Shown: piece by piece, positions 24,252 to 27,334 of the stretch
Numbering within the stretch: position 1 is the stretch's first letter
Layout: each line of letters begins with the position of its first letter
Assembly: GCA_015486015.1 (NCBI GenBank)
Contig: WFSL01000002.1
Location: 8,871-72,870, forward strand
DNA length: 64,000 nucleotides
From: Aquificota bacterium
GTDB taxonomy: Bacteria; Thermosulfidibacterota; Thermosulfidibacteria; Thermosulfidibacterales; B14-G1
Direction of reading: 5' to 3'
Notes under the pieces: generated by a model
Seen by the model: the letters and a program-made list of their open reading frames with translations, nothing else
The model's database searches: none
Told to the model about the DNA's origin: nothing
Program-made: the position numbers and the translations under genes

Positions 24252-25301
24252 ATGTTCAGGTGGAATATGGGGTCACTACTTCATATACGCGAGATCACAG
24301 AGGAGATGGAGCTTCAGATCCTCCATCCCTTTGCAGCCAAGAGTGCAACAAGCAAGGGCAGGGCGAGGCCAGAGGAGCCCTGCCCTGTGAGGACGGCCTT
24401 TCAAAGAGACAGGGACAGGATAATCCATTCTAAATCCTTCAGGAGGCTTAAGCACAAGACCCAGGTCTTCCTTTCGCCAGAGGGGGACCATTATAGAACA
24501 CGCCTCACCCATACCTTGGAGGTGGCACAGATTGCACGCACCATTGCCAGGGCACTGAGGCTAAACGAGGACCTCACAGAGGCCATCGCCTTGGGTCATG
24601 ATCTGGGTCATACACCCTTTGGCCATGCAGGGGAGGCAGTACTCCAGGAGATCCATCCTGGAGGGTTTAGCCACCCTCAGCAGAGCTTGAGGGTGGTGGA
24701 TCTCTTGGAAAAGGGAGGCGAGGGGCTAAATCTTACCTTCGAGGTGAGGGACGGGATCCTGAAACACTCCAAGGGGATGGGGGCCATCTTGCCTGAGGGG
24801 GAAGATACTCCACTAACCTTGGAGGGTCAGGTGGTGAGGATCTCCGACGGTATCGCCTATGTGAATCACGACTTGGACGATGCACTACGGGCTGGGATCA
24901 TTACCATGGACGATGTTCCTAAGGAACTTATAGGGTTCTTGGGTGATACTCATGCTAAACGTATCAACTCTATGGTCCTGGATGCCATCGGGGCCTCTTT
25001 GGAGGAGGAGTTGAGGCGCATCACCCTCTCTCCAGGGATGTTGGAGGCCATTACTGAGATGAGGTCTTTCCTCCATGAGAGGGTATACCTAAATCCCTTG
25101 GTTTATAATGAGTTTGTTAAGGCATTTAAGGTAGTGAGGGAGCTCTATTTCTATTACATGGAACACCCCTGTGAGCTCCCACCTGCCCCTGCTGAGGATG
25201 TGGCTACCCAGGTATGTGACTTCATAGCAGGCATGACAGACAGGTACGCCCTGCATCTCTATCATCGCATATTCATTCCCCACCCCTGGGGAAAATGCTG
25301 A
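24252..25301 (+). CDS. dgt: deoxyguanosinetriphosphate triphosphohydrolase-like protein
   Basis: 349-residue HD-domain dNTPase that removes triphosphate from deoxynucleotides. Seen: [34 protein letters not shown], the metal-binding [16 protein letters not shown], and [15 protein letters not shown]. Length fits the shorter bacterial dGTPase-like class. The ATG at 24267 has AGGTGG just upstream and may be the true start; the family usually begins near IREITEE. Divergent from the preceding minus-strand gene. Confidence 0.9.
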
Positions 25302-25330: not shown

Positions 25331-25359
25331 TTGACAAACCCCTGGGTCCAAGGTATGAA
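25331..25359 (+). promoter_or_regulatory. sigma70-like promoter of the aromatic leader
   Basis: Perfect -35 TTGACA at 25331-25336, exactly 17 bases of spacer, and -10 TATGAA at 25354-25359 (four of six consensus positions). The predicted transcript start, around 25365-25367, coincides with the ATG cluster of the leader peptide, so the leader mRNA would be leaderless or have a very short untranslated end. Confidence 0.55.
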
Positions 25360-25366
25360 TCAAACC

Positions 25367-25450
25367 ATGATGAAAATGAATTACAGGATATTTAACTGGT
25401 TTTGGTTTTATTACTGGTGGGGCCTGCCTATGCGGTCCCTCAGCGCATAG
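25367..25450 (+). CDS. aromatic-rich leader peptide (attenuation control)
   Basis: Short reading frame with in-frame ATGs at 25355, 25367, 25370 and 25376 and a TAG at 25448-25450; the 25367 start gives 27 residues. Its core, encoded at 25382-25420, is YRIFNWFWFYYWW: 10 aromatic residues in 13 (four TGG, three TTT, two TAC and one TAT codons). Such density is not expected by chance and matches the role of trpL/pheL-type leader peptides, where ribosome stalling reports charged-tRNA supply. Here all three aromatic amino acids are represented. The stop codon lies in the loop of the first hairpin of the attenuator. No Shine-Dalgarno is visible, in keeping with a nearly leaderless transcript. Confidence 0.85.
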   Translation: MMKMNYRIFNWFWFYYWWGLPMRSLSA

Positions 25451-25521
25451 TTGAGTCAAAGGGGCCGTGGGCAGGCAGAACCCACGGCCTCCCTTCTTCT
25501 CTTTTAGGGCCGTGGGTTTTT
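25422..25521 (+). promoter_or_regulatory. three-hairpin transcription attenuator before aroA'-aroB'
   Basis: Segment 1 (25422-25439) pairs with segment 2 (25461-25476): GCCTGCC with GGCAGGC, and CGGTCCC with GGGGCCG (one G-U). Segment 2 GGCCGTGGG (25463-25471) can instead pair perfectly over 9 bp with segment 3 CCCACGGCC (25481-25489), loop of 9. Segment 3 can instead pair perfectly with segment 4 GGCCGTGGG (25508-25516), which is followed by five Ts. So 1:2 and 3:4 coexist (termination), and 2:3 excludes both (read-through). A ribosome held on the last aromatic codons (to 25420) would cover segment 1 and release 2 to pair with 3. This is the full logic of trp-type attenuation. Confidence 0.88.
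25481..25521 (+). terminator. intrinsic terminator arm of the attenuator
   Basis: Perfect 9-bp stem CCCACGGCC / GGCCGTGGG (25481-25489 with 25508-25516), 18-base loop, followed directly by TTTTT at 25517-25521. It lies 32 bases before the aroA' start codon and competes with the 2:3 antiterminator. Confidence 0.85.
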
Positions 25522-25553
25522 CACCCCGGCCCTAAATTTTTAGGAGGTGCATC

Positions 25554-26345
25554 ATGATAGGTAAGACCATTCGGATGGAGAGGATCATGGACAGGGCCAA
25601 GGGGACCACTGTGATAGTCCCCATGGATCACGGCGTAACCGTGGGGCCTATCAAGGGGCTTATAGCCTTTAAGGACACTGTGGAGGCCGTAGCGCAAGGA
25701 GGGGCCAATGCAGTGCTAATGCATAAGGGGATGGTGTCTGTGGGTCATAGGAGAGGTGGAAGGGATATTGGGCTCATCGTACATCTCTCCGCAGGTACTG
25801 CCTTGGCCCAAGATCCCAACTGCAAGGTGCTGGTGTGCACCGTGGAAGAGGCCATAAAGCTTGGGGCCGATGCCGTATCCATCCATGTGAACATCGGGGC
25901 GCCCGATGAGAAGAACATGCTACGCGACTTTGGCAAGGTGGCCCAGAGCTGCTTAGAATGGGGAATGCCCCTGCTGGCCATGGTTTATCCCAGGGGGCCA
26001 AAGATAAAGAACCCTTACGACGTAAGCGTGGTAAAGCACGCCGCTCGCATCGGAGCAGAGTTGGGTGCCGATTTGGTAAAGGTTCCTTATACGGGAGACC
26101 CCGATTCGTTCTCCGAGGTGACCCAAGGCTCTCCTGTTCCAGTGCTCATTGCTGGTGGAGAAAAGATGGACACCGAGGAGGATGTCTTGAGGATGGTGAA
26201 GGGGGCCATTGACGCAGGGGGGGCAGGTGTCTCTATTGGAAGAAATGTGTTCCAGCACTCCTCCCCCCAAAAGATGGTGGAGGCCATCTCCCTATTGGTC
26301 CACAAAGGAGCCTCCTTAAAAGAGGCATTGGAGGTGTTACATTGA
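25554..26345 (+). CDS. aroA': 2-amino-3,7-dideoxy-D-threo-hept-6-ulosonate synthase (archaeal-type, DhnA family)
   Basis: 263-residue class I aldolase-fold enzyme. In the alternative route it makes the seven-carbon precursor of 3-dehydroquinate from an aspartate semialdehyde-derived and a sugar-derived unit. Seen: [52 protein letters not shown], the Schiff-base Lys in [12 protein letters not shown] near residue 176, [14 protein letters not shown] and [11 protein letters not shown]. Strong ribosome site AGGAGGTG 4 bases before the ATG. First structural gene after the attenuator, overlapping the next gene by 4 bases. A plain fructose-bisphosphate aldolase is excluded mainly by the partner. Confidence 0.92.
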
Positions 26346-27334
26346 GAGAGGTATGGGTTAGGGTGATTCCTTTCAGAAAAGAGTTGGTCACTACCGCCTT
26401 GGAGGCTGGGGCTCATGGTATATGGGTAGAAGGAGATGCGGTTTCCAAGGTGAGGGAGTTGGGCCGGATAAAGGTGTTGGGTGAAGAGGGGGACTTACAA
26501 CCTGGGAAGGACTTCTTTCATGTGAGCATCCATTCCGGGGAAGATCAGGAGAAGGCGTTGGAGCTATGTGGCAAAGGCCCTGTGGTGGTAGAGGCGGTAG
26601 ACTGGAAGGTGATTCCCTTAGAAAACCTGGTGGCAGCCTCAGATGCCATCTTTGCCGTGGTGAGGAGCGAGGACGAGATGAGGCTCGCATTGGGGGTTTT
26701 GGAGAAAGGCGTTTCAGGGGTGGTGGTGGATGTTGATGATCCTTCCCTTCTAAGGAGGCTCGTGCTCATGGTCCAGGACGAGGTAGAAAAGGTAGACCTG
26801 GTGGAGGGGACCATCCGGGATGTGAAACCTCTATGGATGGGGCATCGGGTATGTGTGGACACATGCACATTAATGGGAGAAGGGGAGGGGATGCTGGTGG
26901 GAAACTCCAGCAGCTTTTTATTTCTGATTCACGCAGAGAGCATAGAAAATCCTTATGTAGCCCCCAGGCCCTTCCGCGTCAACGCCGGAGCGGTCCACTC
27001 TTACACTATGGTACCTGGTGGAAAGACCAGATATCTCTCGGAGTTACAGAGCGGGGATGAGGTGCTACTGGTAGACCACCAGGGCAATGCCAAGGGTGCG
27101 ATAGTGGGCAGGTCCAAGGTGGAGAAGAGGCCTCTCCTTATGGTGAAGGCGCAAGTGGGAGATGTCCCAGGTACATGCATCCTCCAAAACGCCGAGACTA
27201 TCCGCTTGGTCTCCCCGTCTGGCGATGCCCTCTCCGTTGTCTCCCTAAGGGAGGGCGATCGGGTAATGGTCTATCTTGAAGAGGGAGGACGCCACTTTGG
27301 TATAAAGGTGGAGGAGAGCATTCAGGAAAAGTGA
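26342..27334 (+). CDS. aroB': 3-dehydroquinate synthase II (archaeal-type)
   Basis: 330 residues, AroB'/DUF of the archaeal-type pathway: NAD-dependent oxidative deamination and cyclisation to 3-dehydroquinate. Seen: the family blocks [87 protein letters not shown] (split) and [11 protein letters not shown] start overlaps the aroA' stop, implying coupled translation. Together the two genes replace AroG/AroF and AroB; no classical aroB is in the window. Convergent with ispDF, 17 bases apart. Confidence 0.93.

Follow-up and report, generated by a model that had tools for sequence, protein, structure and literature searches.

The window analysed here, a 64,000-nucleotide stretch from the genome of an uncultured bacterium (1.62 Mb in 43 contigs, 97% complete), carries a leader region situated between dgt and aroA', with aroB' after aroA'. 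The features, numbered from the first nucleotide of the window, are as follows.

24252-25301: dgt, the 5' neighbour of the leader region.
25331-25359, forward strand: promoter TTGACA-17-TATGAA (from sequence; TTGACA and a -10-like hexamer occupy the same position in 9/9 members of the order).
25367-25450, forward strand: leader ORF MMKMNYRIFNWFWFYYWWGLPMRSLSA (from sequence; aromatic run unique in the window; orthologous frames in relatives L004-L011).
25382-25420, forward strand: regulatory codon run YRIFNWFWFYYWW, 10/13 codons aromatic (from sequence).
25422-25439, forward strand: segment 1, putative antiterminator 5' arm, 3' of the aromatic codons and encoding GLP (pairing and covariation).
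25461-25476, forward strand: segment 2, partner of 1 (antiterminator) or of 3 (proximal terminator) (pairing, covariation and folding of partial transcripts).
25481-25491, forward strand: segment 3, partner of 2 (terminator side) or of 4 (second antiterminator) (pairing and covariation).
25503-25517, forward strand: segment 4, partner of 3, or of 5 as the 5' arm of the distal terminator (pairing and covariation).
25523-25541, forward strand: segment 5 and U5, the conserved 3' arm and U-run of the distal terminator (folding; U-run conservation).
25542-25547, forward strand: Shine-Dalgarno sequence AGGAGG of aroA' (from sequence).
25554-26345, forward strand: aroA', 2-amino-3,7-dideoxy-D-threo-hept-6-ulosonate synthase (NF005556 and TIGR01949, above cut-off).
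26342-27334, forward strand: aroB', 3-dehydroquinate synthase II (NF002627, E 1.2e-141, above cut-off).

The profile matches bear out the gene names aroA' and aroB' proposed in the initial annotation. Because no aroFGH-type DAHP synthase was found in the 97% complete genome, and the B. subtilis type gave just a sub-threshold match, possibly KdsA, AroA'/AroB' is probably its sole entry to the shikimate pathway. The promoter proposed at the same time is likewise present (TTGACA at 25331-25336, a 17 nt spacer, TATGAA at 25354-25359). A generic scan reported no promoter here, its rule requiring T at position 6 of the -10 box; this fixed-rule promoter and terminator scan misses the terminators as well, and is not counted as contrary evidence.

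The leader ORF comprises 27 codons, from the first in-frame ATG 3' of the promoter (25367) to a TAG stop at 25448-25450. Its aromatic run proved unique: elsewhere in the 64 kb, in all six frames, no 13-codon stretch had even 8 aromatic codons, a level never reached in 20 Markov resamples. The ATG lies 7 nt past the -10 box and is preceded by no strong Shine-Dalgarno sequence. This gap is 7-10 nt in all nine order members examined, and exactly 7 nt in each of the five from the window's family; leaders of the order have no strong Shine-Dalgarno sequence, while those of Desulfobacterota mostly have one, together with a longer gap. In this order, therefore, such spacing points to an ORF that is itself probably leaderless, its transcript beginning at the ATG.

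Between the aromatic codons and aroA', five segments can form four overlapping stems, each named here by the segments that it joins. Stem 1:2 pairs 25422-25439 with 25461-25476 (16 pairs), and 2:3 pairs 25461-25471 with 25481-25491 (11 pairs); 3:4 pairs 25478-25490 with 25507-25519 and is accompanied by TTTTT at 25517-25521; 4:5 pairs 25503-25517 with 25523-25536, with U5 at 25537-25541 immediately 5' of the aroA' Shine-Dalgarno sequence. The initial annotation had correctly listed the first three stems and the TTTTT, but overlooked the fifth segment and with it terminator 4:5. The stop codon falls between segments 1 and 2, approximately 10 nt 5' of segment 2. The fold of the window's aro leader showed no pause hairpin across its aromatic codons, and Rfam searches, with default and with permissive settings, gave no credible match and no leader family, either for the window or for ten relatives.

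The comparison set consisted of eight relatives from the same order which, with the window, make up the nine order members; the order's named records are metagenome bins, carrying the label ‘bacterium’ or ‘Deferribacteres bacterium’. An aromatic leader (for example FWWFWFYYGRCLPS, FFYFWWYYFKGARPW and YFWSFYFRGGLS) followed by the same chain of segments precedes aroA' in 8/8 relatives. One of these, L009, is without segments 4 and 5, its stems being just 1:2 and 2:3, the latter a terminator followed immediately by U5. Upstream of the aroA'/aroB' homologues, then, where the initial annotation had suggested looking, relatives keep both the aromatic frame and covarying stems. A survey of 80 named AroA' loci, order members included, found the leader at 39 loci outside the order, out of approximately 70 with enough upstream DNA to judge. 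These 39 were nearly all from Desulfobacterota, plus one Spirochaetes bin; the leader was absent where the AroA' locus carried a Planctomycetota, Aquificota or Armatimonadota label. Among plasmids, AroA' matched only distant enzymes. A hairpin with a U-run (dG below -14, within 150 nt before aroA') was present in 43/48 loci with the leader, compared with 1/32 loci lacking it. The Spirochaetes locus (L094, bin GWB1_36_13) has the aroA' leader YFWFYYYYSYRSS and a strong 1:2; transfer or mislabelling of the bin is possible.

The typical Desulfobacterota arrangement runs from the aromatic codons through GGTCTGCC (encoding GLP) and the stop to AAAGCCGTGGGCAGACC...GCCCACGGCTTTTTT and then, after this first terminator, AAGGCCGTGGA...TTCACGGCCTTTTTT and aroA'; GGTCTGCC is complementary to GGCAGACC within the first terminator. 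Among 30 aligned Desulfobacterota loci, a U-run follows 2:3 in 27 and 4:5 in 25, but 3:4 in none. All eight order members having 4:5 show a U-run after it, and only one of the eight, the window species, shows one after 3:4; there the 2:3 U-run has degenerated into a C/U stretch, and 3:4 happens to have U5 behind it. Because U-runs follow 2:3 and 4:5 and not 3:4, we assign 1:2 and 3:4 as the read-through pairings, and 2:3 and 4:5 as the termination pairings. The initial annotation, which took 2:3 for the antiterminator and 3:4 for the terminator, was thus off by one in its numbering: on the comparative evidence its 1:2 is assigned as the antiterminator and its 2:3 as the proximal terminator, while its 3:4 terminator with TTTTT appears confined to the window species, the conserved terminator being 4:5 (25503-25536 and U5). 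The idea that parity is inverted relative to trpL was considered and dropped, as Desulfobacterota loci show an ordinary antiterminator/terminator pair and the numbering was simply shifted by one.

Covariation supports stems 1:2, 2:3 and 4:5 in these alignments, and 3:4 more weakly. In the 30 Desulfobacterota, 1:2 was 86.8% paired, and both sides had changed in five of its pairs (15 cells); 1/500 shuffles scored as high, and slid partners reached at most 46%. Stems 2:3 and 4:5 together were 89.6% paired, with 12 both-side-changed pairs (45 cells; 0/500 shuffles), and 3:4, where the signal is weak, was 91.7% paired with a single such pair. Across the nine order members, 1:2 (core) and 2:3 were both 100% paired, with two both-side-changed pairs each, and 3:4 was 94% paired with three. 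Shared ancestry inflates the shuffle tests, making the slid controls and counts of changed pairs the better guide. Duplexes between a locus's own segments 1 and 2 had the greater stability, -23.9 kcal/mol against -19.1 kcal/mol for swapped partners (0/20,000 permutations as good), a comparison of aggregate value only, given that the hairpin was mis-assigned in several loci, the window's included; like the pair counts, it is subject to shared phylogeny.

Folding of partial transcripts points the same way. When a ribosome occupies the first F, Y or W codon and the RNA reaches the end of segment 2, the probability of 1:2 was 0.97-1.00 in the nine species, the exception being L009 with F (0.58). 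A ribosome at the stop codon leaves RNA that folds as 2:3. After segment 3 has been made, 2:3 beats 1:2 at equilibrium in most species, and in the window 3:4 and 4:5 are equally stable (-23.2 and -23.3); for these reasons the switch and its read-through state must be kinetic, acting during transcription.

Leader-peptide attenuators are marked by enrichment in end-product codons, here 10/13 aromatic and kept in relatives, and by mutually exclusive antiterminators and terminators, here the rival pairs 1:2 and 2:3, and 3:4 and 4:5, backed by covariation and U-runs. We consider it highly probable that the element is a ribosome-mediated transcription attenuator coupling aroA'/aroB' to the supply of charged tRNA-Phe, tRNA-Tyr and tRNA-Trp. 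The initial proposal of a Phe/Tyr/Trp leader-peptide attenuator thus stands as regards the frame, the relatives and the covarying stems, but not the wiring. Transcription would start at or beside the leader ATG, with ribosomes loading once the RNA emerges. Were any aromatic amino acid scarce, a ribosome would stall in the aromatic run, 5' of segment 1, which would be free to pair with segment 2 before segment 3 had been transcribed; segment 3 would then take segment 4, 4:5 would be blocked, and aroA'B' would be transcribed. Were aromatics sufficient, the ribosome would pass segment 1 and reach the stop between segments 1 and 2, 1:2 would not form, and 2:3 would form in its place, leaving segment 4 free to build 4:5 with U5, so that transcription in vivo would end 5' of aroA'. 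Given the usual footprint of a ribosome, one at the stop codon would be expected to occlude the antiterminator. Segment 1 lies 5' of such a ribosome in some species, and exclusion there depends on the ribosome sitting between segments 1 and 2; in L044, L053 and L065 segment 1 lies immediately past the stop and would be covered by the terminating ribosome.

The window sequence by itself would physically allow wiring like that of E. coli trpL, with segment 1 hidden by a stalled ribosome, 2:3 as antiterminator and 3:4 with TTTTT at 25517-25521 as terminator; it is the relatives that decide. All the stems required are present, U5 does follow 3:4 in the window species and, as the aromatic run adjoins segment 1, a stall on its last codons would cover part of that segment (its 5' half). 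Such wiring is nevertheless improbable, given a distribution of U-runs that favours 2:3 and 4:5 over 3:4 in the order and the aligned Desulfobacterota, the reduction of L009 to 1:2 and a 2:3 terminator with U5, and the position of segment 1 in L044, L053 and L065, past the stop and unreachable from a stall at the first aromatic codons.

Two further explanations dispense with codon-dependent attenuation. The tandem terminators might be constitutive and the translated ORF non-regulatory, or CUCC near 25490 might mask the aroA' Shine-Dalgarno sequence as a translational switch; in the full-leader fold, pyrimidines near 25490 do pair with the region of that Shine-Dalgarno sequence, but neither version would account for the conservation of aromatic codons, for the leaders ahead of trpE and leuA whose codons match their operons (below) or for a covarying 1:2, and we regard this as very unlikely. 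We give equally little credence to TnaC-like stalling, in which the nascent aromatic peptide would sense free aromatic amino acids instead of charged tRNA. The peptide is partly conserved within the window's family (WFWFYY), but Desulfobacterota leaders scramble the order of aromatic residues while keeping their composition, and in sibling leaders Leu or Trp codons take their place in keeping with the operon, both as codon reading predicts.

The aro element belongs to a wider family. A covariance model built from Desulfobacterota only, with no members of the window's order (R1), had the aro leader as its best match in the window's genome (E 6.8e-4), and of the eight listed relatives it recovered the aroA' leader in seven. 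At E 0.001 it matched 109/247 Desulfobacterota genomes, compared with 3/89 unrelated genomes; two of these three, when read, were aromatic leaders before DAHP synthase. The majority of the best Desulfobacterota loci lie before aroA', and others before DAHP synthase (either type) or shikimate kinase. A cultured member of the phylum, Desulfatibacillum alkenivorans (L104), carries the element. A second model, R2, built on the window's order, detected four elements in the window's genome, before aroA'B', trpE (MMREKMISIVCWWWHLGVPPAP), leuA (KKIGLLLSLLLLKARPGAFREG) and paaK (MVQRGKVSVRWFSFFVT), of which the aro and paaK elements were in its alignment, and are matched by construction, while those before trpE and leuA were not. 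The trpE leader (contig C13:6498-6575, locus L214) has WWW codons and tandem terminators and, by inspection, a hairpin over its Trp codons (TGGTGGCAC with GTGCCACCA), as in E. coli trpL.

Leaders with Leu codons, sharing this scaffold, were seen at C42:2309-2398 of the window's genome (L200) and at L140, L201, L204 and L208, before leuA wherever the next gene was readable. Phe/Trp-codon leaders precede paaK (phenylacetate-CoA ligase) in the window's genome (C43:21406-21479, L138/L206), in one family relative and in two Desulfobacterota (L145, L147 and L209), suggesting that paaK may serve arylacetate salvage into aromatic amino acids. Trp leaders GWWWQTL, GWWWRTL and GWWWQTP (L142, L143 and L144) precede a short secreted protein, possibly of the outer membrane, that has no NCBIfam match; at L144 a TrpB-like gene (trpB2) follows. 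Two others, FWWWCRGEVCP (L202) and WWWWQGLVCP (L215), precede LivH/UrtB-type ABC permeases, for which tryptophan or aromatic uptake is predicted. Individual Desulfobacterota loci show an Ile/Val-rich leader before ilvD (L146), an FY-rich leader before an aminotransferase (L148) and an aromatic leader before DAHP synthase (L149).

We are evenly divided on a broader reading, in which one ancestral scaffold, with an antiterminator arm at the leader stop and tandem cross-complementary terminators, would have served across the order and Desulfobacterota as a codon-exchangeable amino acid sensor. It would have been retargeted to Phe/Tyr/Trp (aroA'B' or non-homologous DAHP synthases), Trp (trpE, transporter, trpB2), Leu (leuA), Ile/Val (ilvD) and Phe (paaK), and an untranslated aro leader would, unlike trpL, default to read-through.

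Attenuation at this gene pair has been proposed before. A TyrA-family paper (PMC1173090) listed in its Table 7 in 2005, from Merino's database, a putative attenuator before the Desulfovibrio vulgaris aroA'>aroB'>aroQ-pheA>aroF>tyrA>trp supraoperon. The genes and position are the same, the likeness being drawn from the published table alone, where the entry appears without leader peptide, sensed amino acids, mechanism, segment map or relatives; the novelty first ascribed to the leader was accordingly overstated. The literature searched otherwise held no description of the aro leader, and as subscription papers are thinly covered there, this absence is weak evidence.

Among known systems, E. coli trpL and pheL share a short ORF with cognate codons, an antiterminator exclusive with an intrinsic terminator, and a biosynthetic target; the aro leader differs in addressing three amino acids together, in its additional 3:4/4:5 cascade, in being without a pause hairpin over the aromatic codons and in an ORF that is apparently leaderless in the order. 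The two-hairpin Trp attenuators of Actinobacteria, as described in the accessible part of PMC1262725, similarly pair an antiterminator and a terminator through a common complementary triple, but are from another phylum, read Trp only and show no tandem terminator cascade. In Sinorhizobium meliloti, an alphaproteobacterium, the trpL transcript begins with the ATG of the leader ORF (PMC7298713), a precedent for a leaderless start, although there Trp alone is read and the target is trpE. The uORFC-13-1 motif of Acholeplasma (PMC8632094), likened by layout and not by sequence, places a uORF with a run of Phe codons and a terminator before aroF, but reads Phe only and is from another phylum.

The aro leader is, judged from its anatomy and conservation, a genuine and widely conserved leader-peptide attenuator of known kind, whose new features would be the joint reading of three amino acids, the terminator cascade, the apparently leaderless frame and the codon-swapped siblings. 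Regulation of the bacterial AroA'/AroB' entry to the shikimate pathway is essentially undescribed in the searchable literature. Here one RNA device would read all three end products, placed before whichever non-homologous enzyme catalyses the first committed step, which suggests stronger conservation of the regulation than of the enzyme controlled. Through this element, amino acid control in a phylum of uncultured and sulfate-reducing bacteria can be approached from sequence, and the leader peptides hint at what unassigned transporters and salvage genes act on.
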